DNA of 37,937 bases from an uncultured Hungatella sp. (GTDB taxonomy: Bacteria; Bacillota; Clostridia; Lachnospirales; Lachnospiraceae). The stretch covers positions 1-37,937 of the forward strand of contig CAMTAF010000028.1 in the NCBI GenBank assembly GCA_947066955.1, read 5' to 3'. The translations under genes and the position numbers were made by a program. A model generated the notes under the pieces. That model saw only the letters and a program-made list of their open reading frames with translations, did not search any database and was not told the origin of the DNA. Of the stretch, positions 1 through 29,706 are shown piece by piece. Each line of letters starts with the position of its first letter. Position 1 is the first letter of the stretch.

Positions 1-324
1 CGATTCCGACTCGGACTGGGACGGCCTCTCAGACGACGATTCCGGCTCCGACTGGGACGGCCTCTCAGACGACGATTCCGACTCGGATTCGGACGGCCTC
101 TCAGACGACGATTCCGACTCGGACTCGGACGGACTCTCAGACGAGGATTCCGACTCGGACTGGGACGGACTCTCAGATGACGATTCCGACTCGGACTCGG
201 ATGGGTTCTCGGATGAGGATTCCGACTCGGACTCAGACGGGTTTTCGGACGATGATTCCGATTCAGACTCGGATGGATCCTCTGATGACGATTCCGACTC
301 AGACTCAGACGGTGATTCCTCTGT
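1..324. repeat. 36-bp in-frame minisatellite, nine units
   Basis: Nine head-to-tail units of exactly 36 bp begin at 1, 37, 73, 109, 145, 181, 217, 253 and 289; the last is degenerate at its end. Each encodes 12 residues of Ser/Glu/Pro sequence on the minus strand. Units near the left edge are most alike and those near 300 most diverged. The array continues beyond the window. It is protein-coding DNA, not a CRISPR array, because there are no unique spacers. Confidence 0.9.
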
Positions 325-801
325 GGGCGGTTCCTCCTCCTTCCACACGGGTATAATCCACAGGGCGACTGCCGAGTCCGGCACCTTGTTATAATAGACT
401 TCTGAGGAGACGGATCCGCTGCGGTCTATGCCATCCAGTTCTTCCAGGACAAATCCGCTGTTAACGCTGTACAGCCATAGATTCCAGCCTGCAAGCACGG
501 TCTGTTCAGGTCCCTGGATGCTCCCGTACACCTGCTGTTGTTGGTCAAGAGGGGTATCCAGCTGGATCTGGATCTGTTTCATCTCCTCCTGGATGCTCTC
601 CGTCAGCTCCCAGGGAGATAAGATGTTTTCGGCCCCCGTGTACACATATGCGGCAACAGAGGAGGCCTCCTGTCTGGCAGCGTTTAACGCCGTGGCTCTT
701 CTCATGGATGCGTCATCCGCCGTCACCACCGCGGGCATGGTCTTTATGGCCAGGATGAACCCCAGCCACAGGGCAAACAATCCTTTCCATCTCCTTTTCA
801 T
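1..801 (-). CDS. Exported Ser/Glu-rich repeat protein, 3' end beyond the window
   Basis: The frame is open from ATG at 801 to the left edge (267 codons seen, no stop), so it is a partial gene. The start has a GGAGGA about 8 bases upstream. The N-terminus ([20 protein letters not shown]) is a basic, hydrophobic export signal or membrane anchor. Residues about 30-155 form a globular-looking segment with several Trp and Tyr. From about residue 160 the protein turns into 12-residue repeats of the type [12 protein letters not shown], rich in Ser and Glu with one Pro per unit, which would make a stiff, acidic stalk or spacer on the cell surface. I recognise no family. It is the last visible gene of the minus-strand train, separated from the glycosyltransferase gene by three tandem palindromic repeats. 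Export is well supported; its role is unknown. The Ser residues could be glycosylation sites, which would fit the glycosyltransferase next door, but that is inference. Confidence 0.75.
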
Positions 802-820
802 GATCAGTTCCTCCTCATTT

Positions 821-1075
821 GGTAATGACACGCCCCGCTTGCGCGGAACCTGCCAACACGGAGGAAGGCATCCTAAAAACGCTTACGCGTTTGCCTTCCT
901 CCTCTTCGGTAACGGCACGCCCCGCTCCGCGGGACCTGCCAACACGGAGGAAGGCATCCTAGAAACGCTTACGCGTTTGCCTTCCTCCTCTTCGGTAACG
1001 GCACGCCCCGCTCCGCGGGACCTGCCAACACGGAGGAAGGCATCCTAGAAACGCTTACGCGTTTGCCTTCCTCCT
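821..1075. repeat. Three tandem copies of the palindromic interspersed repeat
   Basis: The GAGGAAGGCA core recurs at 861, 947 and 1033, giving an 86-bp period. Each copy has two hairpins: a short one with GGCA...TGCC ends around a CCCGC/GCGGG stem, and a longer one with GGAAGGCA...TGCCTTCC ends enclosing AAACGC...GCGTTT. On the minus strand each copy begins AGGAGGAAGGC. The copies fill the gap between the glycosyltransferase gene and the Ser/Glu-repeat gene; the rightmost copy supplies the end of the glycosyltransferase frame. Related copies lie at 11991-12070, 14251-14415 and 35321-35400. Confidence 0.9.
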
Positions 1076-1749
1076 AAAATCAGTCTTACGTGGCGGAGGC
1101 CGTCGGGAAGCGCGCGGAGGTGGGAGGGGGCCTTTCTCCGGTCTCGCCTCAGCTTTGCCGGAATCTCGCAGACAGGCTCCCCTGCCTGGGCAAATCTTCC
1201 GATGAGCTCTGTGGCAAACTCCATGCCATCGCAGGACAGGCCCAGGGACAAGGCTTTTTTCCGGTCAAATCCTCTCATCCCGCAGTGAAAATCCCCGATG
1301 TCCACCTGATATCGGATTCTTCCGAGGAAGGACAAAATAGGCACTCCCACATACTGGTGGGAGAAGGGCATGGCCTTTTTTTCTATGCCTCCTTTGTAGC
1401 GGTTTCCCACCACAAGGGCGCAGCCTTGTCTCAGCTTTTCCAGAAAATCCCCTGTTCTGGAGAAATCATAGCTTCCGTCACAGTCTCCCATAACCACATA
1501 CCGTCCTCTCGCTTCCCGGATACCGGTTCTCAAGGCGCTGCCGTAGCCTTTCTTCGGCTCCGGGATGACCCGGACCCCCAGCTTTCTGGCGATCTGGGGA
1601 CTTTTGTCCCGGCTTCCGTTGTCAACGATAAGGATTTCCCCGAAAACGCCGCTTTCCTCGAGATATTTCCTTGCTTCCCTGACGCAGAAAGCCAAACTTT
1701 TCTCTTCATTGAGGCAGGGCATCAGGATGGTCAGTTCCGGCTCAGTCAT
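1045..1749 (-). CDS. Family 2 glycosyltransferase (DPM1/polyprenyl-phosphate type)
   Basis: This 234-residue protein is a GT-A fold glycosyltransferase of the dolichol/undecaprenyl-phosphate sugar synthase type, acting at the inner face of the membrane. Visible motifs are LMPCLNEE (residues 9-16), IVDNGSRDKS for nucleotide binding (about 40-50), the GDCDGSYD metal/donor site (about 88-95), GNRY, and the acceptor-side stretches GDFHCGMRGF and DGMEFATELIGR. Many relatives continue after the DGLRHVRLIL segment into membrane helices. Here the frame stops at once: the last roughly nine residues (GGRQTRKRF) are encoded by the palindromic repeat, so the C-terminus may have been trimmed by repeat insertion. 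The ATG start overlaps the end of the upstream membrane-protein gene by 8 bases, implying translational coupling and a shared pathway: this enzyme would load a lipid carrier and the membrane protein could use it. Confidence 0.85.
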   Translation of the reverse strand: MTEPELTILMPCLNEEKSLAFCVREARKYLEESGVFGEILIVDNGSRDKSPQIARKLGVRVIPEPKKGYGSALRTGIREARGRYVVMGDCDGSYDFSRTGDFLEKLRQGCALVVGNRYKGGIEKKAMPFSHQYVGVPILSFLGRIRYQVDIGDFHCGMRGFDRKKALSLGLSCDGMEFATELIGRFAQAGEPVCEIPAKLRRDRRKAPSHLRALPDGLRHVRLILGGRQTRKRF

Positions 1750-3031
1750 GGCGTCTGGTCTCCAGAACCACGGCTGACAAAACCGCCAGAACAGGACTCA
1801 CCAGAGCACGGTAAGTAAAAAACTCGTGAAGGTAGGAATGGTTGCTCAAAACCATGTACCGAAGGAAAACCATGGATCCCAGGAGAAGCACGGTCTGGGT
1901 TCCCCAGTGGTTTTTATTGTTTTTATAGAAAAGATACCCATAGGAACCCAGGCAGAAAAACACGGCCACAAGCCCTGCGCCTACCCGGGGAAATTCCACT
2001 CTGGCGGTTCCTCCAAAGAACACTGTGAGGTTGGCCGCCACGGCCATGGGCATCCTTATCAGCAGGTTGTCTGGGCCCTGCCCTACCAGTGTGCCTCCCA
2101 GGCGGTTTTGGGCTGATGAGAAGGCGGCCAGGAACCTATTTTCCCCAGAGGCCACAGAGGCGGCGGTCCATTTTGCCAAAAAAGTCCCCCCATACCCCAC
2201 AAGCCAGCAAAGCCCCCATTGGCCCATATGGCTTAAATTCTCCCAAAAGCTTCCCAGACGTCCTTCCAAGGCTCTCACTGCCGCCACCAGGGTCAGAGGA
2301 ACCAACAGGACCACGGTCTCTGTGGTGAGAAAATCAAAAAAAGCGATGAGAACTCCCGCTGCCAGGGACAGAACCCCAAGGTACTCCTCCTTTCTCCTCT
2401 CTGCCCACAAAAATGCGGGGCACAGGAGAAAACAGATCACAAAGGCTGGTTCATATTCCAGGCTGAGGCGGATGTTCCAGACACGGACCGCTGCCAGGGA
2501 CAGGGCCAGGGCTGCCGCCAGGTCTTTGTGCCCCAGCCCCGCAAGCACAGCCATGGTGACTGACCCCAGCACCACCGCGGCCACAAAGCCTGCCGCTTTT
2601 ACCCCCTCCACGTCTGTTACCAGATGGAGGAGGCGGACAAAAATGGCTGACCCGTGCCAGTAGCGGCTGTAGTCCACATTGGGCTCTGTGTCAGGATTGG
2701 TCACCGACAGATACAGTCCCCCGTTTTCTCCCAGTGCCCCGCCGTCAAAGTACCAGGTATCCAGAGAGCTGAGGATGGGCTCTCCCCTCCCCATATTCCA
2801 GCTCACATTCAGCAGGATGGAATCCGCGTAATTGTCGCTGATGCCGCTCCACCTCCTGCCGTTTTCAAAAGAAAACGGGTCTTTATTCTTGTATGTCAAA
2901 GCGCTTTTTTCCATATTGGTTCTGATGGCCTCATTGGGGATGGCCGCGGAGCACACAAGCAGCAGCCACAGGGTCCCCAAAAGTCCGGCAAATACGGCCA
3001 GACAGCAAACACAAGTCTTTCCTCTGCCCAA
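1742..3031 (-). CDS. Polytopic membrane protein, possible GT-C type glycosyltransferase
   Basis: This 429-residue protein has an N-terminal membrane segment (about 8-30), a loop of roughly 100 residues predicted outside (containing the stretch SGISDNYADS), then about eight to nine hydrophobic helices to the C-terminus. The layout of a first helix, a large outer loop and a helix bundle resembles lipid-linked-sugar glycosyltransferases of the GT-C fold, and the next gene makes the matching kind of donor. No diagnostic motif was recognised, so the function is inferred from context only. The start is TTG at 3031, one base after the TAG of the cyclase gene, with GAGGGG 5 bases upstream; a downstream start is possible. 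The 3' end overlaps the glycosyltransferase start by 8 bases. Confidence 0.7.
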   Translation of the reverse strand: MGRGKTCVCCLAVFAGLLGTLWLLLVCSAAIPNEAIRTNMEKSALTYKNKDPFSFENGRRWSGISDNYADSILLNVSWNMGRGEPILSSLDTWYFDGGALGENGGLYLSVTNPDTEPNVDYSRYWHGSAIFVRLLHLVTDVEGVKAAGFVAAVVLGSVTMAVLAGLGHKDLAAALALSLAAVRVWNIRLSLEYEPAFVICFLLCPAFLWAERRKEEYLGVLSLAAGVLIAFFDFLTTETVVLLVPLTLVAAVRALEGRLGSFWENLSHMGQWGLCWLVGYGGTFLAKWTAASVASGENRFLAAFSSAQNRLGGTLVGQGPDNLLIRMPMAVAANLTVFFGGTARVEFPRVGAGLVAVFFCLGSYGYLFYKNNKNHWGTQTVLLLGSMVFLRYMVLSNHSYLHEFFTYRALVSPVLAVLSAVVLETRRHD

Positions 3032-3032
3032 T

Positions 3033-4802
3033 CTATCCCCTCACTTTATCTACCTGATACACAAACACGCCGTTGCTTTTCCCTTTCAGAGGAATCTCGC
3101 CCATGGGACTCACATCCACACGGTCTTTGATGTTGTCGTATACCTGCTGGCTGATGAGAATCTGGCCTGCCTTCGCGTTGCTCTCCAGCCTGGCGGCGGT
3201 GTTCACCGTATCCCCGATAGCGGTGTAGTCCATGCGGAACTGGCATCCGATATTGCCCACCACGGCGTTGCCGCAGTTGACGCCGATGCCAAATGCCACC
3301 TCCGAGAGCCCCCTGGCTCCTTCCTTCATATCCCACGCCGCTTTCACTGCCCGGAAAATGTAGTCATCCAGATCAAAAGGAGCGTTGAACACAGCCATGG
3401 CAGCGTCTCCCACGAATTTGTCCAAGGTTCCTCCATTGTCGAAGATGGCCTTGGTGGTCAGGGCCAGGTACTGGTTTAAGATCTCCACTACCTCCTCGGG
3501 CATAAGGCTTTCCGACATAGTGGTAAAGCCCCGGATATCCACAAACAGAACCGCGATATGGCGGTTCTCTCCGCCTAAAACCAACTTAAAATCCGCGTCC
3601 CTGCTGATCTTGTCAACCACCTGGGGGGCCACATACTGTTTAAATACATTGACCACCCGCCTTCTGCGCTTCCGCTCGGCCACATATCCTTCCAGAATCC
3701 GGAACACGTAGAGAACCGACAGAACCACAGGGACCAGGGTCACGGGAATAAGCATTCCCCTGTGATACAAAAAACTGGCAGTCCCCAAGTCAGACAAGAT
3801 CAAAACAGCCAGGACTCCAAAAGCCCTTGTGATCTTGATGTGGGAGGTACCCAGAAAAAAGAGCCCGCACAGGATCCCCGCCAGCCCTCCGTAGAGCAGC
3901 GGCGGCACAGGCAGCTGGGTCTTTCCCTCCATCAGCGCCTGGATGATGTTGGCGTGGATCTCCACACCGTACATCTGACTGTTGTGGGATATGGCCGGGG
4001 TGTAGGCATCCTGCATGCCCACGGCATAGGCCCCCACCAGCACCATAGCATTTTGAAACAGCCTGGCATCTACGGTCCCGTCCAGCACATCTGCCATGGA
4101 GACCACATTGTATCCTCCGGGCTTTCCTGAGTAAGAAAAATAACAACGGTTTCCCCTGGGGTTTACAGGGGGAAACAAAGCCTCCCTCCCCTGGCTCTCC
4201 TCATAGCGCCTGTAGATTTCCGCGGAAAGGCTGTAGATCCGCTCTCCCTCATAGTCCTGCCATGCCATGACCTGCCGCACCCGCCCGTCGGGGTCCACGG
4301 TGGTGTTGGCGTACCCTTTCGCGGCGGCATCGCTCAGGCTGTCATAGGGGCCTATGATAGATTCTATGTGGTAGGGGTCATAGATGACCCTGCCCCCTTC
4401 CTGTTTCGGCACTTCCTTAAAAGAAAAGCTGAGAGCCGTCACCACATTTCCCGCCGCGGCGCAGGCCCTGGCAAACCGGTCATCCCCCTCTTTGTCTCCT
4501 CTCTCGCTGTAGATGATATCAAAGCCGATCACCGCCGGCTTCACAGACGGGTCCTGGCTAAGCAGTTCCACCAGCCGGGCCGGGATGTCCCGGCTCCAGG
4601 TGTTCACGGGCCCATAGCGGTCTAAAGTCTTGTCGTCGATGGCAATGATGTAGATCTTTTTGTTTGTCACCGACGGCTTCTGGTAAAACCTGTCACAGAC
4701 CCCTAAGTCCCAGCCGCCTAAAGCACCCAGATAAAAAAACAGGGCCGAGGCCGCTGCTGCCAGGAGCGCCCCTGCCCCTCTGGCAAGAGGGGTTCTGCCC
4801 AT
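3033..4802 (-). CDS. CHASE2-domain class III adenylate/guanylate cyclase
   Basis: This 589-residue membrane enzyme should convert ATP (or GTP) to a cyclic nucleotide. Order: a membrane segment (about 8-25); an outer CHASE2 sensor (about 30-285, with IYIIAIDDKTLDRYGP near its start); three helices (about 295-365); a short linker; and a class III cyclase domain (about 400-585). Catalytic features are the metal-binding Asp residues in LFVDIRGFT (about 419) and KFVGDAAMAVF (about 466), the adenine-selecting Lys in TLDKFVGD, Thr in DYTAIGDTVN at the second base-selecting position (Lys/Thr as in class IIIb adenylate cyclases), and Asn/Arg in NTAARLES (about 534). ATP is therefore the likelier substrate. 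ATG at 4802 is preferred because AGGAGG lies 8 bases upstream; a GTG at 4811 would overlap that site. It follows the phosphodiesterase-like gene by 15 bases and the cyclic-nucleotide-gated phosphatase gene closely, forming a signalling cassette. Confidence 0.93.
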   Translation of the reverse strand: MGRTPLARGAGALLAAAASALFFYLGALGGWDLGVCDRFYQKPSVTNKKIYIIAIDDKTLDRYGPVNTWSRDIPARLVELLSQDPSVKPAVIGFDIIYSERGDKEGDDRFARACAAAGNVVTALSFSFKEVPKQEGGRVIYDPYHIESIIGPYDSLSDAAAKGYANTTVDPDGRVRQVMAWQDYEGERIYSLSAEIYRRYEESQGREALFPPVNPRGNRCYFSYSGKPGGYNVVSMADVLDGTVDARLFQNAMVLVGAYAVGMQDAYTPAISHNSQMYGVEIHANIIQALMEGKTQLPVPPLLYGGLAGILCGLFFLGTSHIKITRAFGVLAVLILSDLGTASFLYHRGMLIPVTLVPVVLSVLYVFRILEGYVAERKRRRRVVNVFKQYVAPQVVDKISRDADFKLVLGGENRHIAVLFVDIRGFTTMSESLMPEEVVEILNQYLALTTKAIFDNGGTLDKFVGDAAMAVFNAPFDLDDYIFRAVKAAWDMKEGARGLSEVAFGIGVNCGNAVVGNIGCQFRMDYTAIGDTVNTAARLESNAKAGQILISQQVYDNIKDRVDVSPMGEIPLKGKSNGVFVYQVDKVRG

Positions 4803-4817
4803 ATCCCTCACCTCCTG

Positions 4818-5681
4818 TTAAACAGTCAATTCCATGCCTTCTCTGGCAAACGCAAGGCTCACGCCCCTGTTTTCCGCCTCTTTTGCCGCCTCCCGCTCCA
4901 TCTCTCCAAGCTGCTCATCCGTCCTTTTCCAGTCGTGGTGGCTGATGCAGAGCTTTTTCGCGCCGCACTGGACCGCCATGTCAAGGCCCTGCTGCCAGAA
5001 TCCGTGACCGAAGCCTTTAAAATGGCAATACTCTTTTTCATCATAGGGGGCGTCAAAGATGAGAAGCCCGCAATTTCCGGCAAATCGGCGGTATTTTTCC
5101 CACATCCGGCCAGACTCTTCTCCAGGCTCACAGTCCAGGCCGTAGACCACGGAGCTCCCTTTTTGGTCCAGGCGGTAGATGACGGTTCCGTCGGGATGCC
5201 GGGAGCCCATGACCCTGACTTTGACTTCTCCCGGAAGGTTCCACACATCGCCGTCCCTGGTGTCATGCCACTGTATTTTCGCGGAAACCTGCTCTAAGGA
5301 GATGGGCCAGCAAGGAGGACCTATGACCTTTCCGAGACGTTGGCGGAAGGAGTTCTCCCCTTCCCCGGGGCCGAAAAATTCCATATCCGCCGCTTTCCAG
5401 AACAGAGGGGGAAACAGGGGAAGGCCCATAATGTGGTCTAAGTGGACGTGGCTCACAAAGATGTGGAGCTTCCTGGTTTGATCCCATTGTCCCCTGGCTG
5501 CCGCCTCCTCCAGATGCTGTCCCAGGGCCAGGATCCCTGTCCCTCCGTCAAAGACAGCCATCCCTTCCGGCCACTGTACGGACACAGAGCTTGTATTGCC
5601 TCCATAAACCATGTGGCTGGAAAAAGGAGCGGCCATGGACCCTCTGGTTCCCCAAAATTTTAAACCCAAACCCTCTTCCAT
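4818..5681 (-). CDS. MBL-fold metallohydrolase, probable cyclic nucleotide phosphodiesterase
   Basis: This 287-residue soluble protein starts with the FWGTRGS...YGGNTSS pattern of the MBL-fold family that includes class II cAMP phosphodiesterase-like and RNase Z-like enzymes. The metal site is clear: HVHLDH (about residues 98-103), a further His in GSRHPDGT, Asp in YGLDCEPG, and the late SHHDWKRTD motif (about 247-255). FDGGTG near residue 45 is the usual DAGTG-like turn. The family has several substrates, so cAMP hydrolysis is an inference. Its position between a cyclic-nucleotide-binding phosphatase and a nucleotide cyclase makes removal of the cyclic nucleotide the most economical role. 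ATG at 5681 has GGGAGAGG upstream. The gap to the upstream phosphatase gene is 44 bases and shows no clear promoter. Confidence 0.85.
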   Translation of the reverse strand: MEEGLGLKFWGTRGSMAAPFSSHMVYGGNTSSVSVQWPEGMAVFDGGTGILALGQHLEEAAARGQWDQTRKLHIFVSHVHLDHIMGLPLFPPLFWKAADMEFFGPGEGENSFRQRLGKVIGPPCWPISLEQVSAKIQWHDTRDGDVWNLPGEVKVRVMGSRHPDGTVIYRLDQKGSSVVYGLDCEPGEESGRMWEKYRRFAGNCGLLIFDAPYDEKEYCHFKGFGHGFWQQGLDMAVQCGAKKLCISHHDWKRTDEQLGEMEREAAKEAENRGVSLAFAREGMELTV

Positions 5682-5725
5682 TGCCTCTCCCTTCTATTTT
5701 TCCAGGATCATCTTGCTTTCCAGAA

Positions 5726-6898
5726 TCATCTTGCCAGGATCACCATGGTGATGTCGTCGGACTGGGGCGCTCCTTTGGCAAAGGACTCCACCTCCCGGTA
5801 CATGCTTTCCATCAGCTGCTCCGGGTCCCCTGTCTCGCCCCGGTGACGGTTGAGGGCCTCCTCCATGCCCTGATCCGAGAACATCTCCCCGTCCGTGTCA
5901 AAGGCCTCCGTGGCCCCGTCGGTGTACAGACAGAGACAGTCCCCCGGCATGAGCTGTCCGGTCTGCTGCCTGTAGGGCATATCCTCCATAATGCCCAGGA
6001 CAAAGTCCGCTTTGCATTCCATCTGTGTAAAGGGTCCTCCGCCTCTGCTGACAAAGGGCTTGTTGTGCCCCGCATTGACGTAGGTCAGCTGCCCTGAGGC
6101 CGTATCCAGGACACAGAGAAAGGCTGTGACAAACAGTTCCTCCTCATTGTCCTCGTTGAGGCGGTTGTTTACCAGCCAGGCCGCCTTGTCCACAGGCATG
6201 TCCAGCATCATATAGTTCTTGATGTTGGTCTTGGCAAGGGTCATGAACAGGGCGGCCGGAACGCCTTTCCCCGACACATCTGCCACCAGAAAGCAGAGCC
6301 TCTTTTCATCAATCAAAAACACGTCATAAAAATCTCCTCCCACCTCTTTGGCTGGCTTCATCCTGGCGGTGATCTTCACGTCCGGCAGCCGGCAGAACCG
6401 TTCAAAGGACTTGGGGAGAAAGCCTGTCTGGATCCTGGAGGCGATCTCCAGCTCGGATTTCAGCCTCTCCCGCTCTGTCACCATTTTGGTGGTCTTGGTG
6501 TAGAGAAGATCCAGGAGGGCGCCGTAGACTTTGTGGTTGGTCTGGGCCATGCGAAGAAACAGTTTTCTGGAAATATTGGCGCAGTCTGTCCCAGTCACTG
6601 CCCGGACCGTGGCCTTTCTCACATCCTCTTTGATCAACGCCAGCTCTCCCACCACATCCCCGGGTCCCAGCTCATTGATCAGCAGCCCTCCGTCTGTGAG
6701 CACATGGGCTTCTCCCTCCAGGATAATATACATGCCATCCTCCGGCGGGTCTCCCTGGGTCACCAGGTCCTGTCCCCCCTCAAAGTGTTTCAGCTCCATG
6801 GCCTCTAAAAGAAGCCTGGAACCTTCCGGCATCTGCCCGTCTTCCCGTATCTGGAAAAATTCCCGGACAATTTTCAGATCTTTCCAATGATCATCCAT
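5726..6898 (-). CDS. Cyclic-nucleotide-binding domain fused to SpoIIE/RsbU-type PP2C phosphatase
   Basis: This 390-residue cytoplasmic protein has a CRP-like cyclic nucleotide pocket (about residues 30-140) followed by a linker helix (about 140-165) and a PP2C-like phosphatase of the SpoIIE/RsbU group (about 180-390). The binding cassette is GDVVGELALIKEDVRKATVR: the Glu of GELAL and the Arg of the R-x-A motif, which hold the ribose and phosphate in CRP, are both present, so ligand binding is plausible. Phosphatase motifs are EVGGDFYDVF, VADVSGKGVPAALFM, VNAGHNKP, YTDGATEAFD and SDDITMVIL, with the metal-binding Asp residues intact. Enzymes of this type dephosphorylate STAS proteins; one is encoded in the same gene train at 28549-28824. 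The likely role is to turn the level of the cyclic nucleotide into a protein-phosphorylation output. It starts 3 bases after the kinase-like gene ends, with GGAAGGA upstream. Confidence 0.93.
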   Translation of the reverse strand: MDDHWKDLKIVREFFQIREDGQMPEGSRLLLEAMELKHFEGGQDLVTQGDPPEDGMYIILEGEAHVLTDGGLLINELGPGDVVGELALIKEDVRKATVRAVTGTDCANISRKLFLRMAQTNHKVYGALLDLLYTKTTKMVTERERLKSELEIASRIQTGFLPKSFERFCRLPDVKITARMKPAKEVGGDFYDVFLIDEKRLCFLVADVSGKGVPAALFMTLAKTNIKNYMMLDMPVDKAAWLVNNRLNEDNEEELFVTAFLCVLDTASGQLTYVNAGHNKPFVSRGGGPFTQMECKADFVLGIMEDMPYRQQTGQLMPGDCLCLYTDGATEAFDTDGEMFSDQGMEEALNRHRGETGDPEQLMESMYREVESFAKGAPQSDDITMVILAR

Positions 6899-6901
6899 AA
6901 G

Positions 6902-9766: not shown

Positions 9767-9792
9767 ATGCTGTCCCCTTCCTGATCCGCCTG

Positions 9793-11970: not shown

Positions 11971-11972
11971 AA

Positions 11973-14213: not shown

Positions 14214-14250
14214 AACCTGCGCCTCCTTCTCCTTCCTAATTTTAACTGTA

Positions 14251-14415: not shown

Positions 14416-14416
14416 A

Positions 14417-14459
14417 TAACAGGGGGACCTCCTGCCTTAGGCTGGGGCCCCGCCTGTTA
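14417..14459 (-). other. Inverted repeat after the pilin gene (possible mRNA-stability or weak termination hairpin)
   Basis: TAACAGG and CCTGTTA arms (7 bp) enclose a GC-rich inner region with GGGGCCCC, starting about 9 bases downstream of the pilin stop on the minus strand. No run of T follows, so a classic rho-independent terminator is not supported. A role in stabilising pilin mRNA or lowering read-through is possible. Confidence 0.5.
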
Positions 14460-14468
14460 CTTTAAGTT

Positions 14469-16305: not shown

Positions 16306-16308
16306 GGG

Positions 16309-17046: not shown

Positions 17047-17075
17047 CCCCTGCTCCTTCCTGTGGACTTCTCCTG

Positions 17076-22525: not shown

Positions 22526-22538
22526 TGCCCCTGCCTCC

Positions 22539-23960
22539 TTATCCTGAAAATCTCTGTCTGTCGTCTTCTTTCAGACTGCCCGCCATATCGCCGGCAGCTC
22601 CGGCCATTTTTGTAAGGCTTCCCAGGCCCCCTCCTGCTCCGGCCCCAGGGCCCCCCGGAACGCCTCCCCCCAGGCCCCCTAAACCCCCCAGGGCTGCCGA
22701 CGAGCCTCCCGTGGCCGCCGCCGCTGCCATGTTTGCCGCGGTGCTGGCGGTTCCCACCACGATTCCTGTCATCAGAGAGCCGGACTGCTGCTCAGCCGCC
22801 GCTGCCTCCTGATTTAAGATCTGCATGATCAGGCTCTGGCTCTTGTACACCGCCCAGGCGCCCCCGATGATCATGAACAGCTTAAGGATACTGTTGATCA
22901 TCACCCCTCCCGGAAGGCTGGGGCTGTAGAGGCATAAGCGGTTGCCCGCGATAGAGGGCACCAGAATCATGTAATACCTCATGGAAAAGATCACCCCGAA
23001 TCCGGAGAAAAACTTTGCCACAAACAGCTCCCGCCACCGGGCAAAGGTGGCCCCGTCGTCCAGGGGGATGGTGGACACGAAAAACGGGGACACCAGGTAC
23101 AAGATCAGAAGCTCAAAGATCCGCCGGATAAAGATGATCACAGCCCCGGCCAGGATCAGCAGGATGAGGATGCCGCTGACAAAGCCCTGAATATAGTTAA
23201 AGTTGGAGGGATAAAAATCCTTCTTCACCGTGGTTAAGTTTCTGTAATCCTTCTCCCCCTTCAGATACGGATTTCTCACATCATCGTCAAAAGAGGGGTT
23301 CCTTTCTGTCTCCGGATCCTCCATCTCCCCTGTCACAGGGTTTTTCCGGCTGGCCGTGGCTTTATCCGCATCCATCCCCGCTGACAGAAACAGAATGGTG
23401 CCCATGGTGGAGGAACCTCCCTGGGCGGCGTCAAAGGCGCTCACCGCCTGGTTGGTCACCAGGCTGGAAAGCTGAAGGAGGGCAACGCACAAAAAGGGGA
23501 TGAGCATAAAGGAGACCGCCGCCTTCATGCCATCCGCCAGCACCTTGCTAACGGGATTTCTGTCCTCCAGGGTCATGTCGGAGATGGATTTGGCTGTCTT
23601 ATAAATGGTAAAGATAAAGGATATGACCACCGCCATCACCGTGATATAGACAAAAGCCGTGGTCACCTCCCCCATCTGGAAAAAGGCGTCCAGAAGGTAG
23701 GTCTGCCGTCCTTCCACCTGCACCGGGCTGATGCCCGCGAAGACATTGAAGATATTTTCCACAAAATCTACCAGGGAACAGAGGACCGTGAAAATACCCA
23801 AAAGCCATTCCGACCACATGGACCAGATCACCGACATGAAATATTCCGCGAAGACTTTCAGGATGTCGGTCAAAATAGGGGCAAACACATTTGACAGCAG
23901 GTCATTGAAAATTTTTCTCAGCCCTTCCTCAAAGGATATGGCCAGACAGCTGACTTCCAA
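22539..23960 (-). CDS. VirB6/TrbL-like polytopic channel protein (second paralogue)
   Basis: This 473-residue protein has about six to seven membrane helices and the same signature as its neighbour: FTIYKTAKSISDMTLEDRNP, then RRIFELLILYLVSPFF, IPLDDGATFARWRELF and GGAWAVYKSQSLI. It ends in a short Gly/Ala-rich tail instead of a long one. It belongs to the Gram-positive VirB6-like (Mbov_0396-like) family. Two adjacent, diverged copies suggest a mixed channel or two functional states. The start is TTG at 23960, preceded by AGGAGG with 7 bases of spacing. Its stop (TAA) forms part of the ribosome binding site of the next gene. Confidence 0.88.
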   Translation of the reverse strand: MEVSCLAISFEEGLRKIFNDLLSNVFAPILTDILKVFAEYFMSVIWSMWSEWLLGIFTVLCSLVDFVENIFNVFAGISPVQVEGRQTYLLDAFFQMGEVTTAFVYITVMAVVISFIFTIYKTAKSISDMTLEDRNPVSKVLADGMKAAVSFMLIPFLCVALLQLSSLVTNQAVSAFDAAQGGSSTMGTILFLSAGMDADKATASRKNPVTGEMEDPETERNPSFDDDVRNPYLKGEKDYRNLTTVKKDFYPSNFNYIQGFVSGILILLILAGAVIIFIRRIFELLILYLVSPFFVSTIPLDDGATFARWRELFVAKFFSGFGVIFSMRYYMILVPSIAGNRLCLYSPSLPGGVMINSILKLFMIIGGAWAVYKSQSLIMQILNQEAAAAEQQSGSLMTGIVVGTASTAANMAAAAATGGSSAALGGLGGLGGGVPGGPGAGAGGGLGSLTKMAGAAGDMAGSLKEDDRQRFSG

Positions 23961-23971
23961 GGTCTCACCTC

Positions 23972-25714
23972 CTACCTTACCTTAACGGTTTTTTTTACGT
24001 GGACCACGAAGACGGCTCCTCCGATGATCACCAGGATGATCAGAACCACTGCCAGGATCCCGTATTTATTGACCCGGTATTTTAGTGTAAAGTTCTGGCT
24101 GGACGCATTGCCTGCCTGGTCTCTGGCCGTGAGAGTGTAATCGCCGGGGGCTGTGATGGTGTAGCCGGAAAATCCGGGCTGAAGCTCCCCGTTTTTCTCA
24201 AGAGAGATCTGGGCGATGTCCTGGGACAAGTACTGAATCTGGGCCGTGCCCCCCTCCACTGTCACCGAAAACTCGGGAGGGCTTGTGTCTTTTTGGAGAA
24301 CCACCTCCATGTTCTCCCCGCCCTGGCCTGCCATGGTGACCTGATACTGGCCATCCTCCTCCATGGGCACGTACCGGCTCCCTTCAAAAGGAACCATGTT
24401 CCCGTCAAGGGTGACCGCCTCAACGGCAAAGCCCCTGGGGGCCAGGAAGCGGTCTATAAGGTTTACATAGGTTCCTATGGTAAAGGACCAGCTCTGCCCA
24501 CCTGCCTCCAGCCGGTAATGTCCCGGCTCTGTCAGGCTGCCGCCTGGTGAGTATTCCACTGCTTCGTCATCCCGGTACAAAACCACATCCCCCTCTGACA
24601 CGGACAGTTCCACGGGGGAGGGCCCCATATATCCTTCCGGCACATTGGCGGTCAGGGTCCTGCCGTTGGAGAATGTGACCAGATACAGTCCTGTCGCCGG
24701 GTCGTAGTCCTGGGTCCGGCTCTCATAGGCTCCGGCAGCGGTTCCCCCAGGGCCGGATAATGTCCCGGACCCGCTCTCTCCTTCCCAAGGGCTTCCATCC
24801 GCTGCGTTTTGACCTTCCCGGGAGGCTTCCCAGGCCTCTCCGCCTGGATTTTGCCCCTCCGGGGAGGCTTCCGAGACCTCTCCGTCTGGATTTTGGCCTT
24901 CCTGAGAGGCTTCGGGCTGAGAGGCTTCCAGGAACTCCTCCCCGGCGTTCTCCCCTTCTTCCGCGGCCTGGCCCTCCCCGGCCCGGCTGGTTTCTGTCCG
25001 GCCCTCTTCCGCGGCTGTGGCTGTTTCCACTTCCTGCCCGGCTCCCAAGGTTCCATTTCCACCCAGGGCTGAGGAAAATCCCTGGCCGTAGCCGGATTCT
25101 CCCACAGAAGCCTGGTAGCTTTCTGACGCCTGCTCCTCTGTCTCCTGGGGAGGTTTCTCCTGTATCCGGAACCGGAACACGGCCCGGTACTCTCTCTGCT
25201 CCGACAAGGGCAGGCTTAAATCTTCCACCACCGACAGCCTGGCTACATAGGTGCCCAAGCCGCTTATGTCCTGTCCCGGCGTGTACGGGATGGGAGCCCC
25301 GTCTTTTTCCAGGACGCAGGTTATATTCTGAGGGATATCTAAGGTTACGGGTTTGTCCGTGATGCCTCCGTTCGCCACATTGCTGTAGAAAAAAAAGGCG
25401 CCGCCTATGGATTCCTCGTAGGTCTTGTACTCCTCATGGTAGCGCTCCCCCAGGGACACCGATGTCACCGAGGGGCCTGACACATTTTCCTCCACCTTGA
25501 GGGTCTCCCCCTCCTGGGTGTCGTAGACCTCCCCCGGGCCAGTGATTCTGGTCAGGCCGTCCTCCCTGTCCTCCTCCTGTCCGCTGTCCGCGTTCCCCTC
25601 CCAGTCGTAGAGGGAGTCGGACACGTACACAGCGCCGAGGGCCGGGAGGGAATTTGCCGCCATCCCCGCGGCCATGAAAATTGCTGCCAAAAAAACTTTG
25701 TGTTCTCTTCTCAT
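23972..25714 (-). CDS. Membrane-anchored Ig-like surface protein (long paralogue)
   Basis: This 580-residue protein has a signal peptide (about 1-28), a beta-rich region (about 70-180), a long Glu/Gly/Ser/Pro-rich spacer (about 180-330) with 14-residue repeats, then the Ig-like C-terminal half shared with the protein at 14882-16018 (ELSVSEGDVVLYRDD, APRGFAVEAVTLDG, KDTSPPEF, TARDQAGN) and a membrane helix (about 550-572) with a basic tail. It would stand on the outer face of the membrane next to the channel. GTG, ATG and ATG codons lie in a row at 25720-25712; the last ATG has the best spacing from GGGAGG. The start region overlaps the VirD4 stop. Confidence 0.8.
   Translation of the reverse strand: MRREHKVFLAAIFMAAGMAANSLPALGAVYVSDSLYDWEGNADSGQEEDREDGLTRITGPGEVYDTQEGETLKVEENVSGPSVTSVSLGERYHEEYKTYEESIGGAFFFYSNVANGGITDKPVTLDIPQNITCVLEKDGAPIPYTPGQDISGLGTYVARLSVVEDLSLPLSEQREYRAVFRFRIQEKPPQETEEQASESYQASVGESGYGQGFSSALGGNGTLGAGQEVETATAAEEGRTETSRAGEGQAAEEGENAGEEFLEASQPEASQEGQNPDGEVSEASPEGQNPGGEAWEASREGQNAADGSPWEGESGSGTLSGPGGTAAGAYESRTQDYDPATGLYLVTFSNGRTLTANVPEGYMGPSPVELSVSEGDVVLYRDDEAVEYSPGGSLTEPGHYRLEAGGQSWSFTIGTYVNLIDRFLAPRGFAVEAVTLDGNMVPFEGSRYVPMEEDGQYQVTMAGQGGENMEVVLQKDTSPPEFSVTVEGGTAQIQYLSQDIAQISLEKNGELQPGFSGYTITAPGDYTLTARDQAGNASSQNFTLKYRVNKYGILAVVLIILVIIGGAVFVVHVKKTVKVR
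24807..24932. repeat. 42-bp in-frame repeats in the spacer of the Ig-like protein
   Basis: Three units of about 42 bp start at 24807, 24849 and 24891. On the minus strand they encode EASxEGQNPxGE-type 14-residue units in the acidic spacer. The last unit is degenerate. Confidence 0.75.
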
Positions 25715-25716
25715 CA

Positions 25717-27726
25717 TCACGCCTCCCGCGCCTCTTCCTCCTGGCCGGCTTCCTCCAAGGATGCCACAATATAATTGCGCTCCTCCAGGTCATAGTACAC
25801 CTCATCCCCGAAAAAGGCGTTCATCCGGACTTCCGACAGGTCCATGGTTCCCATCTGGTACAGGGGACACTTGTAGCTGGGGGTAAATTTTGTCTTCAGA
25901 GGATAATTGCCAAAAGTGACGATAATGGCATTGCCTGTGTCGGTCTTGTTGTTCAGCTTCTGGAGCTCAGACGGATAGATGAGGGGCCTGGTCTGGAGCT
26001 GACTGGACACATTGATGTTGCCCTGTTTGTCTCCCATGGAGGAGGAGATGCTTGAGGTGGACACGGTCATGTTGCCGCAGAGCTTGGAAAACTCCTCGCA
26101 GGTCTCGATGTCATTGGAGCCGATAAACATCTTCATTCCGCAGTTGCTCTTGATGATGTTGGACACCTTGTCGCCGTAGACATTGTCAAGCTGGGCGTAG
26201 GACTGGACCACCATGTTGAACCAGATCTTTCTGGAGCGGCCCACGGTGATCATCTTGTCAAATTTGTCGATCTTAGGCATGTTGCCGAACTCATCCAAAA
26301 TAAAATACACGTTTCTGGGAAGGCTTAAATCCTCCCTGGAAGAGGCCACCTTGATGAGGGCCTTGTAGATGCACAGGATAAAGACCGCCGCCAGGGCATG
26401 GCGGGTGTCCTTCTCGTCAGGGATCTTCAAAAACAGGGCCGTGGGCTCTGCCGCGAACTGTACAGGGTCAATGTCCGTGGCCGATGTCAGGGAACAGAGA
26501 CCCTCGTCGTTGAACATGGACAGCTTGTCAAAAGCAATGGACATATAGCTGGCCATGGTGCTCTCCGCGGCAGACAGCACCTGCTTGGACAGGCCCACTG
26601 CCTTGGATACCGGGGAACGGCCTTTGAAAAATCCTCTCAGGGCCTCGTAGTCATTATCTGAGTTGCCGATGGCCTTGTTGATGTTGTAAAAACAGAATTT
26701 CTCCTTGGTCATCTCCAGCTCTGGGTACTCGCTGTCCTCCATCATGGCCAGGCACACCGCCATAATCAGGGATCGGGCTCCTTTCTCCCACACCGGGTCA
26801 TCCTGGGATTCCACAGGACAGATAACGCTGATAAGATCATTGAGGTCCTCGTAGACCTCGTCGTAGATTTTCTGCCTGCCAATCTTGATGTGGCTCAGCA
26901 GTTCCCGGCGCACGGCCCAGGCTTTGCCTTCATACTCGTACCACTCTTCTTTGTATTGGTCCGGCTCATTGACCAGCTCCAGGCCGCTCTCCATGGCAGA
27001 ATCCCGCCTGAGAAAAATCCCCTCCCCGGTCTTTAAGTACAGCTGATACCGGTCATAGAGATCCGAGAGAGGATTCCAGCGGAAGGAACTGTAGGGATCC
27101 CTCAGGTCCAAGACCATGACCTTGTACCCCCGCTCCTTCAAAAGGCCGCTGTGGAGCTGGAACAGCTCACCCTTGGGGTCCGTGCAGATCATGGAGGATC
27201 CTGCCCCTGAGCGGGCAAGAATCTGGATCATGGGATTGATGAAAGTAGTTGTCTTGCCGCTTCCTGTAGCGCCGATGACCAGTCCATGCATGGGAGAGGC
27301 CAGATTGACATCAAGCTCCCTCCTTTTTTTGTTAAAACAGGCATACACGGGGATTCCGTCTTTAGAGCTTTCAGAAAGTTTCGTGAATTGATAAGGAGCG
27401 AAATTGCTGTCCCGCTCCTTCTCGGTCATGAAACGGGAGTTTTCCAGATTGCTTTCAAAATTTTCCGCTTTGGACTTCATCAGTTTCCTGGCCTGCTTGG
27501 CAGAAGGCCTGGAAAATAAAAGCCCGATCAGGATTACAAGGGCGCTTAAGGCCGCCCCGTACAGATAGGTCTCTCCCCGAAAAAGCAGGGAATAATCCAG
27601 GATCTCCCCCTCGTACAGGCCAAGCAGCGACGGGACGAGCCGCAGGATAAGACAGCTGACGCCAAATCCTGTCAGGATGGCTCCCAGGACAAATCCCAGG
27701 ATTCCCAGAATCACTTTTTTTATCAT
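25717..27726 (-). CDS. VirD4/TraG-type coupling ATPase
   Basis: This 669-residue membrane ATPase selects substrates for type IV secretion. Two N-terminal helices (about 5-27 and 40-65) are followed by a RecA-like domain with Walker A GATGSGKTTTF (about 152-162), the conserved CTDPKGEL stretch (about 180), Walker B FILDEFGNMP (about 475), and YAQLDNVYG with NCGMKMFIGSND in the late motor region. All motifs of an active coupling protein are present. ATG at 27726 overlaps the stop of the protease gene and has AAAGGAGG upstream; the longer frame upstream runs back through the protease gene and was rejected. It is the first secretion gene of the train. No relaxase gene accompanies it here, so the substrate may be protein. 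Confidence 0.95.
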   Translation of the reverse strand: MIKKVILGILGFVLGAILTGFGVSCLILRLVPSLLGLYEGEILDYSLLFRGETYLYGAALSALVILIGLLFSRPSAKQARKLMKSKAENFESNLENSRFMTEKERDSNFAPYQFTKLSESSKDGIPVYACFNKKRRELDVNLASPMHGLVIGATGSGKTTTFINPMIQILARSGAGSSMICTDPKGELFQLHSGLLKERGYKVMVLDLRDPYSSFRWNPLSDLYDRYQLYLKTGEGIFLRRDSAMESGLELVNEPDQYKEEWYEYEGKAWAVRRELLSHIKIGRQKIYDEVYEDLNDLISVICPVESQDDPVWEKGARSLIMAVCLAMMEDSEYPELEMTKEKFCFYNINKAIGNSDNDYEALRGFFKGRSPVSKAVGLSKQVLSAAESTMASYMSIAFDKLSMFNDEGLCSLTSATDIDPVQFAAEPTALFLKIPDEKDTRHALAAVFILCIYKALIKVASSREDLSLPRNVYFILDEFGNMPKIDKFDKMITVGRSRKIWFNMVVQSYAQLDNVYGDKVSNIIKSNCGMKMFIGSNDIETCEEFSKLCGNMTVSTSSISSSMGDKQGNINVSSQLQTRPLIYPSELQKLNNKTDTGNAIIVTFGNYPLKTKFTPSYKCPLYQMGTMDLSEVRMNAFFGDEVYYDLEERNYIVASLEEAGQEEEAREA

Positions 27727-28577
27727 ATGATCTCCTCCTTTCTGTACCAACACAGGGCCCACACGGCCAGAAGAAAGGCCGTCCCTCCCAGAAAGGCAAC
27801 CCGGAGGCTGCTTCCAAACAGAAATTCTTTCCACACCGGATTTTCGTTGATGAAATCCACAGGAACCACGCTTAAATTAAAACCTATGTGGAGGACTATA
27901 GAGTACAGGGTATTGTCCTCCCGTATGGATACCCAGGCCAAAAGCATTCCCATAACCCAGGCGTAGAGGACCCACAGGGGAGATACATGGCAGATGGCGA
28001 ACACTGCCGCAGAAATCCCTATGGCCTGTCTCGGCGCAAACCAGGTAAGAAATCTTCCCAGCATATACCCCCGAAACACGATCTCCTCAGCCACAGGCGC
28101 CAGCAAAACCGTGGATACCAGGGCCAAGATCTGGTCCGTGCCTTGGTTTACCGTCTGGGAGGAGCCGTGGTAGGACTCCTTTAGGCCCGGGGGAAGAGGA
28201 ATCACGGTGATCGCCGCCGAGAAGGCCACTGCCAGCAAAAACCCCGCTGCCAGCAAAAGCCCCGCGCGCTTTCGGTCCGGCCTGACAAGCTCCAGGCCGG
28301 ACTCCTGCCACAGGGAGCTCCCCTTTTTTTGGCTCCTTCTGTACAGCAGCCACACGGTCCCTAAGATTCCCAGGGCATAGTAAAAATTGCCGCTGTCAGA
28401 CAGAACCTTTTGGGAGGTTCTTCCCCCGAACAGCACAAGCCCCACACTGGTGAGGAGCGGCGGAAGAAACAGATACAAAGCCGCCGGCTTAAGCCCCCAG
28501 ACCACCACCCTGCCCGCCTTCCACAGCCGCTCCTGGAAGGACAGTTCCTCAAGTCTCAATGGTGAGCACCCCGGCAA
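27723..28577 (-). CDS. CPBP-family intramembrane metalloprotease
   Basis: This 284-residue polytopic protein has about seven to eight helices and the three CPBP (CAAX/Abi) motifs: EEIVFRG (about 166-172), FAICH (about 191-195) and HIGFN (about 232-236). The Glu pair, His and Asn residues needed for metal binding and catalysis are present. Members cleave membrane proteins or peptides; some confer immunity to bacteriocins. Here it is locked between the STAS and VirD4 genes, so it could process a secreted component such as the pilin. The start is TTG at 28577 with GAGGTGA 6 bases upstream, overlapping the STAS gene by 29 bases; a TTG at 28559 is an alternative. Confidence 0.85.
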   Translation of the reverse strand: MPGCSPLRLEELSFQERLWKAGRVVVWGLKPAALYLFLPPLLTSVGLVLFGGRTSQKVLSDSGNFYYALGILGTVWLLYRRSQKKGSSLWQESGLELVRPDRKRAGLLLAAGFLLAVAFSAAITVIPLPPGLKESYHGSSQTVNQGTDQILALVSTVLLAPVAEEIVFRGYMLGRFLTWFAPRQAIGISAAVFAICHVSPLWVLYAWVMGMLLAWVSIREDNTLYSIVLHIGFNLSVVPVDFINENPVWKEFLFGSSLRVAFLGGTAFLLAVWALCWYRKEEII

Positions 28578-28824
28578 AGCCCGTCACCTCAAAGATCTCC
28601 AGGATGCAGGGCCGGACATTGGTCAGCACCATGGAGCCCCCCGCCTTGTTGATCTTTTTCTGGGCAGACACAAAGGCCCTTAAACCCACAGATGATATGT
28701 ACGTGGTCTCCTCCATGTCCACGGTCAGCCGGGTCTCCCCGGAGGCCAGGATCTCTTTCAGTCTGGCATCCAGCTTTGGGGCCGTCACCCCGTCAATCTT
28801 TTTCTCTGTCTTGATATTGGTCAT
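28549..28824 (-). CDS. STAS-domain anti-anti-sigma-like protein
   Basis: This 91-residue STAS protein resembles SpoIIAA/RsbV. The phosphorylatable Ser lies in TYISSVGLRAF (Ser44/Ser45), preceded by the conserved LTVDMEE strand and followed by GGSMVLTNVRP and FEVTGFAGVLTI. In known systems an RsbW/SpoIIAB-type kinase phosphorylates this Ser and a SpoIIE-type phosphatase removes it; both enzyme types are encoded in this gene train (29196-29651 and 5726-6898). The first strand and loop are short, so the domain is slightly trimmed compared with SpoIIAA. ATG at 28824 with GGGAGA upstream was preferred; an ATG eight codons earlier is an alternative. The start overlaps the DUF1292 gene by 32 bases. 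Confidence 0.85.
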   Translation of the reverse strand: MTNIKTEKKIDGVTAPKLDARLKEILASGETRLTVDMEETTYISSVGLRAFVSAQKKINKAGGSMVLTNVRPCILEIFEVTGFAGVLTIET

Positions 28825-29203
28825 CTTCTCTCCCGCTTTCTGTATCATTGTCAGTCTCCGGGGCCATAAAATAATAGCCATAGGCATCCAGGGCCCTCTC
28901 CTGCTCCTCTTCATCCTCAATGGGAAGCAGGCTTACGTCCCCTTCCTCCCCCTGGCCAAGTCCCATGATCAGGATCTCCCCCTCCTCTGTCTCGAGGGCG
29001 ATGTACTCTCTCCCGCCTTCCAGGAAAACCCCGTCCACCCGGCATTTCATCTCGCCGCCGTCCTGGAGGGTGACGGTGAGCATCACCGGTCCGTCCTCCC
29101 AGACCACCTCATCCTCCAAAAGACCGTCCTCGGCTTCCTCCCAGGAATCCTGATCAGTGCCGAAAACCTGGGCCTCCAAGTCTTCTATGTCATGATCATA
29201 CAT
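28793..29203 (-). CDS. DUF1292 family protein
   Basis: This 136-residue acidic soluble protein carries the DUF1292 core (about 38-105): VMLTVTLQDGGEMKCRVDGV, then EYIALETEEGEILIMGL and a final DAYGYYFMAP stretch. The family is common in Firmicutes and its function is unknown. It overlaps the ATPase gene upstream by 8 bases and the STAS gene downstream by about 32 bases, so it is made together with both switch proteins and may be a partner of one of them. Confidence 0.8.
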   Translation of the reverse strand: MYDHDIEDLEAQVFGTDQDSWEEAEDGLLEDEVVWEDGPVMLTVTLQDGGEMKCRVDGVFLEGGREYIALETEEGEILIMGLGQGEEGDVSLLPIEDEEEQERALDAYGYYFMAPETDNDTESGREDDQYQDREKD

Positions 29204-29651
29204 CTTTCGCGCCTCCGGGGACCAGGACGGCTGTCCGGAATCTCTTCGTGATCACGGTCCTGTTGCATCCCTTTTTATACTCATAATCCACCTGATCCAT
29301 AAACTGCTTTACCATGTAGATCCCCAGACCGCCTACAGGGCGCTGTTCAATGGGCAGAGTCAGGTCCGGGTCTTCCCGCTCCAGGGGATTGTAGGGAATT
29401 CCCTGATCCTGAAAACAGATCATGACCTCTTTAAAGCCCTCCCCCGACCTTTGGATGCGGCACTCTATGTACACCATGCCCTGTCCTCCCTCATAGGCGT
29501 AGGATGCGATATTGGTAAAAAGCTCCTCAACAGAGATCTGGATCAGCCGCCTGTCGTTCTCACCGCACCCCGCCTCTTCTAAGAGGCTGCCGGTGAAGGC
29601 TGTGACCTGTTCCAGATGTTCCATGGAAGCCGGTACGGCTGTCCAGCCCAT
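29196..29651 (-). CDS. SpoIIAB/RsbW-like ATP-binding protein (GHKL fold)
   Basis: This 151-residue HATPase_c protein resembles the anti-sigma factor kinases SpoIIAB and RsbW. Motifs are the N box VEELFTNIASYAY (about 45-57), the D box CFQDQGIPYNPL (about 83-94) and the G box GGLGIYMVKQF (about 107-117), followed by DYEYKKGCNRTVITKR. It should phosphorylate the STAS protein encoded 372 bases downstream and may bind a further target. No sigma factor gene is present in the window, so the target could be a secretion or kinase-like protein, or a sigma factor elsewhere. It is the first gene of the long minus-strand train, with AGGAGGG upstream of its ATG and a good promoter at 29678-29706. Confidence 0.9.
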   Translation of the reverse strand: MGWTAVPASMEHLEQVTAFTGSLLEEAGCGENDRRLIQISVEELFTNIASYAYEGGQGMVYIECRIQRSGEGFKEVMICFQDQGIPYNPLEREDPDLTLPIEQRPVGGLGIYMVKQFMDQVDYEYKKGCNRTVITKRFRTAVLVPGGAKDV

Positions 29652-29677
29652 AGTGATCCCTCCTGGTTTTTCGATTA

Positions 29678-29706
29678 ATCATACTGTGGCTTTCCGTTTC
29701 TTTCAA
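29678..29706 (-). promoter_or_regulatory. Sigma-A-type promoter for the minus-strand gene train
   Basis: On the minus strand, TTGAAA (29701-29706) and TATGAT (29678-29683) are separated by exactly 17 bases, about 27 bases before the ATPase start codon. The match to the housekeeping consensus is strong. It is the only clear promoter found ahead of the secretion genes. Confidence 0.75.

Follow-up and report, generated by a model that had tools for sequence, protein, structure and literature searches.

The locus described here raises the question of whether a type IV secretion system (T4SS) that is encoded together with its own signalling proteins, and in which no relaxase was recognised, moves protein rather than DNA. 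The window, i.e. the whole stretch of DNA analysed (37,937 bp), is the entire contig C28 of a Hungatella sp. draft genome (4.22 Mb, 240 contigs, 92% complete). A minus-strand gene train extends from position 29,651 down to the left contig end and was read as a partner-switch-gated, non-conjugative, protein-moving chromosomal T4SS of Clostridia, with an estimated probability of about 0.55. This reading was built on gene content, its conservation, intact switch residues, the kinase fold of two proteins and a moderate excess of a sequence motif in protein tails. A first-pass annotation of the same DNA had proposed a signal-gated protein secretion or contact machine; the switch genes of that proposal were confirmed, and secretion or contact is kept as a proposal.

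Window proteins were scanned with Pfam (n = 30 open reading frames, ORFs) and NCBIfam (n = 10). VirD4, two VirB6-like proteins, VirB4 and a pilin, noted in the first pass as sharing one train with signalling genes, were recovered with Pfam and NCBIfam. The CHASE2 cyclase, the cyclic nucleotide (cNMP)-binding phosphatase (cNMP_binding and SpoIIE domains), the STAS protein and the HATPase_c_2 kinase were all recovered with Pfam. The description as one strand with mostly overlapping genes also held: all 21 genes between 1045 and 29651 lie on the minus strand, 11 of their 20 junctions overlap and the widest gap is 255 bp. Further members of the train are a CAAX protease, a DUF1292 protein, an SBP3 lipoprotein, two anchored surface proteins, a large lipoprotein, a small protein and two kinase-fold proteins (g07 and g08). 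Machine, switch and associated genes are as follows.

29196..29651, minus strand: SpoIIAB/RsbW-like serine kinase, HATPase_c_2 (Pfam 1.7e-22)
28549..28824, minus strand: STAS-domain anti-anti-sigma-like protein (likely start 28824, ORF to 28920; Pfam 7e-15)
27723..28577, minus strand: CAAX/Rce1-like membrane protease, kept near STAS (Pfam 4e-20)
25717..27726, minus strand: VirD4 coupling ATPase, CD1115 type (likely start 27726, ORF to 27834; PF02534 3.4e-51)
23972..25720, minus strand: surface protein with C-terminal membrane anchor (Ig-like domain, Pfam 0.013, below cut-off)
22539..23960, minus strand: VirB6-like polytopic protein (NCBIfam NF045848, MMCAP2_0566, 273.1 bits, cut-off 90)
19766..22525, minus strand: VirB6-like polytopic protein with long hydrophilic tail (NCBIfam NF045848, 263.5 bits, cut-off 90)
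17076..19769, minus strand: VirB4 ATPase with N-terminal membrane segment (NCBIfam Mbov_0397 1.7e-158, below cut-off)
16309..17079, minus strand: SBP_bac_3 lipoprotein, like the N-terminal part of MltF without the lytic domain (Pfam, NCBIfam)
16015..16305, minus strand: conserved protein of about 96 residues with C-terminal motif (family in 26 + 6 loci)
14882..16018, minus strand: second C-terminally anchored surface protein (likely start 16018, ORF to 16270)
14469..14798, minus strand: VirB2-type pilin (PF18895 3.3e-12, 46.7 bits, cut-off 26.6)
11973..14213, minus strand: large lipoprotein at the position of the propeller protein of the Spiroplasma module (no Pfam match)
9793..11976, minus strand: g08, PI4K/CtkA/HipA-fold kinase with basic low-confidence tail and C-terminal motif (ORF to 12210)
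6902..9796, minus strand: g07, second kinase-fold protein, fused to a hydrophobic segment and a choline-binding domain
5726..6898, minus strand: cNMP-binding SpoIIE-type phosphatase (Pfam 2.8e-49 and 7.1e-19)
4818..5681, minus strand: metallo-beta-lactamase-fold (MBL) hydrolase
3033..4811, minus strand: CHASE2-class III cyclase (Pfam)

By gene content the locus is a T4SS, with VirB4 and VirB6-like proteins encoded side by side. VirD4 scored 296 bits against the CD1115-family VirD4 model of NCBIfam (cut-off 250). VirB4 was aligned from residue 4 by the Mbov_0397 model, which describes VirB4 of mycoplasma integrative and conjugative elements (ICEs), and scored 529 bits, below the curated cut-off of 590 for membership. 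Of the PrgI-VirB4 fusion seen in the first pass, the VirB4 part stood; a separate PrgI domain was not found by Pfam at E ≤ 0.1, though residues 1-85 look like membrane segments. The window likewise contains three components of a partner-switching module: a STAS protein with the serine, a HATPase_c_2 kinase with N, G1 and G2 boxes, and a SpoIIE phosphatase. The serine, at what we take to be the position of the SpoIIAA phosphorylation site, was present in 47/47 STAS proteins. The N-box asparagine was found in 21/23 aligned kinase proteins, that of the window included.

For conservation analysis, the VirB4 search covered one set of 61 genomes, one of 392 from the order, one of 398 from the phylum, and GTDB contigs; order and phylum scans scored two candidates per genome. 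The loci used are the best 80 of 478 relatives (508 candidate stretches, GTDB contigs) and belong to Clostridia where named. Eleven of them are contigs also held among the loci labelled G and some are near copies, so that locus counts are not independent. A long-flank set comprised 39 of the 80 loci, each of at least 21 kb, and an extended set comprised 24 loci with about 9 to 50 kb per side (short flanks in L126, L134, L113, L120, L122, G008, G011 and left of G027). As controls, 20 lower-identity ordinary VirB4 loci were chosen from 13 genomes (stretches of 12.9-20 kb); two of them, L060 and L150, score closer to the family. Profiles were built from window proteins and first relatives, the relaxase model from 10 PF03432 relaxases, and the integrase model likewise locally.

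Machine genes are widely kept in the long-flank set: VirD4 and VirB6 in 37 of the 39 loci each, pilin and SBP3 lipoprotein in 35 each, and the anchored surface proteins in 35 (23972..25720) and 36 (14882..16018). STAS and CAAX proteins each occur in 33 of these loci, the SpoIIAB-like kinase in 15, kinase-fold proteins in 7 and SpoIIE in 6; relaxase and tyrosine integrase were found in none. Since over 10 kb separate the phosphatase from VirB4 in the window, SpoIIE may be missed in 10-kb flanks. In the extended set, STAS was detected in 22 of 24 loci, CAAX in 20, separate SpoIIAB-like genes in 14 (excluding the L076 match, which is its SpoIIE gene), SpoIIE in 13 and kinase-fold proteins in 9. 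Gene calling in this set missed the STAS gene of L068 and the CAAX gene of G016a, both present in other scans. All 20 controls contained VirB4, 12 VirD4, 6 a relaxase and 2 an integrase, and ten other families, STAS and CAAX among them, were found in none. The gene set is therefore more than a chance assembly, since it recurs in relatives and not in the control loci. STAS also occurs in L134 and L140, which branch deepest in the tree as drawn, and in G027. Of the ordered set that the first pass proposed to look for, STAS is thus widely kept, whereas the full cyclic-nucleotide circuit is not general. STAS is the common signalling part, and only window-like loci and H. effluvii have the cyclase branch. 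The H. hathewayi locus holds a kinase, two STAS proteins and a SpoIIE phosphatase. A 578-aa protein encoded there (chromosome positions 3624119-3625852) resembles transporters of the multidrug-efflux type and ends in a degenerate SpoIIAB-like stretch.

Relaxase matches were obtained at none of the 80 named and none of the 24 extended loci with the PF03432-type model (other MOB families not modelled), in line with the first-pass view that neither relaxase nor cell-wall hydrolase is visible; no hydrolase was found among the window proteins by Pfam. A Peptidase_M15_4 protein, possibly a wall hydrolase, was seen in the sub-clade L128/G046 (L128:18280-19278). No PF03432 match was found in the own draft genome; 18/34 examined genomes have at least one. 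Tyrosine integrase was found in 0/80 named and 1/24 extended loci with a model that does not cover DDE transposases, and the window is cut at both ends. Serine recombinase was found at one family locus (L134) vs 3/20 controls. A relaxase beyond the left edge was sought in long relatives and none was found. In the closest of these, contig 14 of draft genome G016, the point matching the left window edge is followed by the rest of g01, a 563-aa protein, peptidase M32 and glucosamine-6-P isomerase. The two findings named in the first pass as pointing to an ordinary integrative element were thus not made, because no relaxase was seen past the left edge and signalling genes are present in homologous loci.

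The predicted chromosomal location was confirmed in the complete chromosome of H. hathewayi, where a LytTR/GHKL pair and rplU flank the locus, and the nearest of ten PF03432 relaxase matches is about 340 kb away. Housekeeping surroundings were recognised by Pfam at three loci (H. hathewayi, G016 and G046). A plasmid or phage origin was rejected, as VirB4 matches there all had <60% identity and none covered 80%; in 72,556 plasmid records no close VirB4 copy was found (none with at least 60% identity or at least 80% cover).

Candidate substrates were sought among protein tails. About 45 residues before the C-terminus, those of the kinases and of the small protein have R/K-x-[IV]-[ST]-[FLY]-x-[EQ]-L in common. 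At that place the plain pattern was present in 46/48 small proteins, 5/12 kinase-fold proteins and 13/74 other soluble train proteins; shuffled tails gave 2.2 on average and 6 at most. A motif profile was trained on 47 small-protein and kinase windows and applied with a threshold of at least 6. It recognised 10/74 other soluble train proteins, 2/211 soluble proteins from outside the trains, 0/97 soluble signalling proteins and 0.47% of shuffled tails. Counted by family, matches were 7/52 vs 2/153 outside (Fisher 0.001), and thresholds from 5 to 8 gave Fisher values of 3e-4, 4e-5, 1e-4 and 5e-3. In the window, the small protein scored 19.3 and g08 11.0, both being part of the training set; g07, outside the training set, scored 14.4 ahead of its hydrophobic segment. 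The CAAX protein scored 8.1 near its N-terminus. Among 16 large soluble locus proteins scanned, 14 had no Pfam match and two matched below cut-off. The motif is a candidate cargo tag or docking element judged from sequence; it is not claimed as a proven export signal, the statistical excess being moderate. Known T4SS signals listed in the available text of PMC12981334 (basic C-termini, E-blocks, FxxxLxxxK) are of like kind and none is identical.

Both g07 and g08 have a PI4K/CtkA/HipA-type fold with D-R-H-x-x-N / D residues present and are predicted kinases. A PDB sequence search with g08 yielded no relative (one chance match, E 1.5). The choline-binding part of g07 was modelled at pLDDT 92.9, with matches for the repeat part only, about residues 5-66. 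This protein, with the architecture of a transmembrane receptor kinase, fits an alternative in which a reduced T4SS forms a surface organelle (pilus, adhesin or cell-cell sensor) that moves nothing and whose kinases are receptors or regulators. The anchored surface proteins and pilin kept in 35-36/39 loci, and the large lipoproteins (25/80 loci) and choline-binding proteins (20/80) counted by clustering, fit it as well. A mere organelle would not need VirD4, and the presence of this substrate-coupling ATPase in 37/39 loci makes the organelle improbable.

The closest solved relatives of the cyclase are adenylyl cyclases, and PDB matches of the cNMP-SpoIIE phosphatase are PKG/PKA regulatory chains, whose cNMP domains its sensor resembles most, and SpoIIE chains. 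A chain from cAMP to phosphatase to STAS is therefore plausible where the genes exist. The first-pass identification of a probable phosphodiesterase (4818-5681) was not borne out: no class II cNMP phosphodiesterase match was found, Pfam at E ≤ 0.1 gave Lactamase_B_2, Lactamase_B and a weak SapA match, and the three solved sequence relatives at E ≤ 0.01 were all RNase Z/ELAC (best 2.4e-4).

For the partner-switch-gated, protein-moving system, the following course is proposed. An outside signal would activate the CHASE2 cyclase and raise cAMP, which would be the signal inside the cell. Binding of cAMP to the cNMP-SpoIIE phosphatase would cause removal of the phosphate from the STAS serine. Unphosphorylated STAS would then capture the SpoIIAB-like kinase and free the kinase's hidden partner, so setting the direction of the switch. 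At loci that encode an ECF sigma factor, the freed partner (the output of the switch) may be that factor; at others it might be a component of the machine or the CAAX protease. Release of the partner would lead to the machine being made or opened. VirB4 and VirD4 would finally push soluble, basic-tailed proteins with the R-x-[IV]-[ST]-[FLY]-x-E-L motif, including the PI4K-fold kinases, through the VirB6/pilin channel. One ECF sigma family was found in 8/79 searched stretches vs one weak match in 20 controls. The gene at L100:19626-20150 is an example, with 7 further loci, and a possible switch output.

Several observations weigh against protein transport, beginning with the descent of VirB4. 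A quickly built tree with 53 VirB4 rows placed the 27 family rows on one side of a branch with SH-aLRT 100 and joined the family to three Mycoplasma/Spiroplasma rows with support of 97; branches are long and the exact sister relation is unsure. The nearest VirB4 relatives thus sit in mycoplasma ICEs that transfer DNA, and for that reason failure to recognise a relaxase is not, taken alone, enough to dismiss DNA transfer. Under this alternative, a machine of mycoplasma-ICE-like descent that settled in the chromosome would move chromosomal DNA distributively, as in mycoplasmas, with a relaxase that escaped recognition. It would account for the sister position in the tree and the 529 bits of VirB4. 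It would also suit a Spiroplasma plasmid that has the same gene order (propeller protein, pilin, VirB6, VirB4, VirD4) and no relaxase named among its 10 listed features, and a Mycoplasma agalactiae ICE model that includes a relaxase while no ICE gene is named as one in the available text (PMC6030558). Distribution is patchy, which suggests that the cluster moved between genomes at times and is a further point for DNA transfer. VirB4-positive genomes, the own included in each count, number 24/392 in the order (E ≤ 1e-120) and 2/398 in the phylum sample, and the close VirB4 type occurs in 9/26 genomes of the genus. Carriers include Hungatella hathewayi DSM 13479 (complete chromosome), H. effluvii DSM 24995, Butyrivibrio sp. 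WCD3002 and Clostridiaceae bacterium 1XD21-72, and the spread extends to loci labelled Oscillospiraceae and Peptococcaceae. The lack of PF03432-type relaxases at all extended loci, the housekeeping surroundings at three of the loci and the fact that the most widely kept accessory gene is a signalling gene make DNA transfer unlikely. In the G016 draft genome, two different system versions were seen on contigs 14 and 6 (VirB4 89% and 64% identical to that of the window).

Recombinases near two relatives belong to the same side of the balance: a tyrosine integrase lies 11.8 kb from the locus in G011, and in L134, an Oscillospiraceae-labelled locus, the SpoIIAB-like gene is followed within the gene train by a serine recombinase of 505 aa (extended locus 17789-19303). 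Both would be expected of an ordinary ICE remnant with chance neighbours. Such a remnant is highly improbable in view of a STAS gene that is widely kept in the clade and found in 0/20 controls, a VirB4 reading frame that is open nearly everywhere listed (stops in 2/25; L141 fragmented) and the failure to find a relaxase. The L141 locus (Clostridia bacterium UC5.1-1D2) is split into many short frames, probably by poor sequence or decay.

Other counterpoints concern switch and cargo. Cyclase and MBL genes were found in 5/24 extended loci each; beyond these, they occur in the window itself and in G005 and G009, two truncated loci. STAS was not seen in 6/39 loci (L075, L077, L096, L099, L105 and L141; the stretch is too short in some), and the window shows neither a sigma factor nor another evident output of the switch. 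The plain tail pattern occurs in 17/211 soluble proteins outside and 1/97 signalling proteins, a weaker contrast than with the profile, and for tails of similar composition the profile gave 7/34 vs 1/18. Among the ten high scorers, the L068 protein resembles an ABC ATPase in its first residues and the L081 protein resembles an outside protein. Motif evidence is rated moderate because some test proteins were inspected before the pattern was fixed. Being fused to both an outer-type domain and a hydrophobic segment, g07 would make an odd cargo; T4SS membrane effectors are known (PMC12981334, available text).

A more specific version of the protein-moving reading is possible, if somewhat doubtful. 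The locus would then represent the first T4SS dedicated to protein injection in Gram-positive Clostridia, chromosomal, with its own VirB2-type pilus, opened by cAMP via the SpoIIE-STAS-kinase switch. Its cargo would carry R-x-[IV]-[ST]-[FLY]-x-E-L-x-x-x-E about 45 residues from a basic C-terminus and would range from PI4K-fold kinases to very large family-less proteins.

The remaining features of the window are listed below; its left edge is the contig end, which truncates g01.

28793..29203, minus strand: DUF1292 protein (Pfam 9e-8)
1742..3031, minus strand: polytopic membrane protein (no Pfam match; homologue in G016)
1045..1749, minus strand: GT2 glycosyltransferase (Pfam 2.1e-27)
1..831, minus strand: g01, Ser/Glu-repeat surface protein, truncated by the contig end
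29977..32146, plus strand: LytTR response regulator and GHKL sensor kinase, divergent from the train (Pfam)

The LytTR/GHKL pair is also divergent at the locus in G016a, L066, L067 and L068 and runs in T4SS-gene direction in H. hathewayi and H. effluvii; Agr-like input through it is possible. GA-cis RNA matches (RF02987) lie on the minus strand at 11986-12073 and 35315-35403. With at least 125 matches in the genome, often side by side, GA-cis behaves here as a dispersed intergenic repeat and was therefore rejected as a regulator of the locus.

Whether Gram-positive T4SSs evolved as dedicated effector translocators is described as a long-standing question in a 2025 review (PMC12857230, available text). 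The clade is a candidate for such a translocator, and for a VirB2-type pilin, in gut and rumen Clostridia. With named strains, a built-in switch and a candidate substrate list, the question becomes directly testable. If the protein-moving reading is true, the locus may be a dedicated protein-delivery machine of the kind long sought in Gram-positive bacteria.

Partner switching of the RsbU/RsbV/RsbW type is well known, and in Bordetella BtrU/V/W controls type III secretion; to our knowledge, no earlier T4SS has been tied to it. SpoIIE phosphatase, STAS protein and serine kinase are shared with both, and in contrast to them the switch here has no sigma factor in the window, includes a cNMP-binding phosphatase and lies inside a T4SS operon. 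With the Mycoplasma/Spiroplasma ICE module (Mbov_0395 pilin, Mbov_0396, Mbov_0397 VirB4, VirD4) the locus shares VirB4 and VirB6 families, the pilin, gene order and a propeller protein or lipoprotein adjoining the pilin. It differs in its walled clostridial hosts, doubled VirB6, anchored surface proteins, partner switch, kinases and the lack of a detected relaxase, and its VirB4 is 27-29% identical to Spiroplasma proteins among the matches listed. According to the available text of PMC12102498, Patescibacteria T4SSs are likewise monoderm, chromosomal, mostly without relaxase and thought to be non-conjugative, and their VirB2-type pilins were searched with PF18895 among others. As differences, that text makes no mention of partner switch or cyclase, VirB3-VirB4 fusions were not found there, and the system is essential for epibiont growth in one species. 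VirB2-type pilins in Gram-positive T4SSs are described in the review as known only from Patescibacteria (PMC12857230, available text). At annotation level this is too strict, because the conjugation module of Exiguobacterium plasmid pEYLC1.2 has an annotated pilin beside a CD1115 VirD4. That module also shares a VirB4-like ATPase with the present locus and differs in its MobP3 relaxase and plasmid location. The Streptococcus suis 89K system is another Gram-positive T4SS linked to protein export, and differs in lying on a pathogenicity island and in having VirB1, 3, 4, 6, 8 and VirD4 as signature genes and no partner switch mentioned in the available text (PMC12857230). No description of the regulated, relaxase-less combination was found in open-access PubMed Central (preprints not covered). 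The machine parts have known relatives, and what appears to be new is their regulated, relaxase-less assembly.

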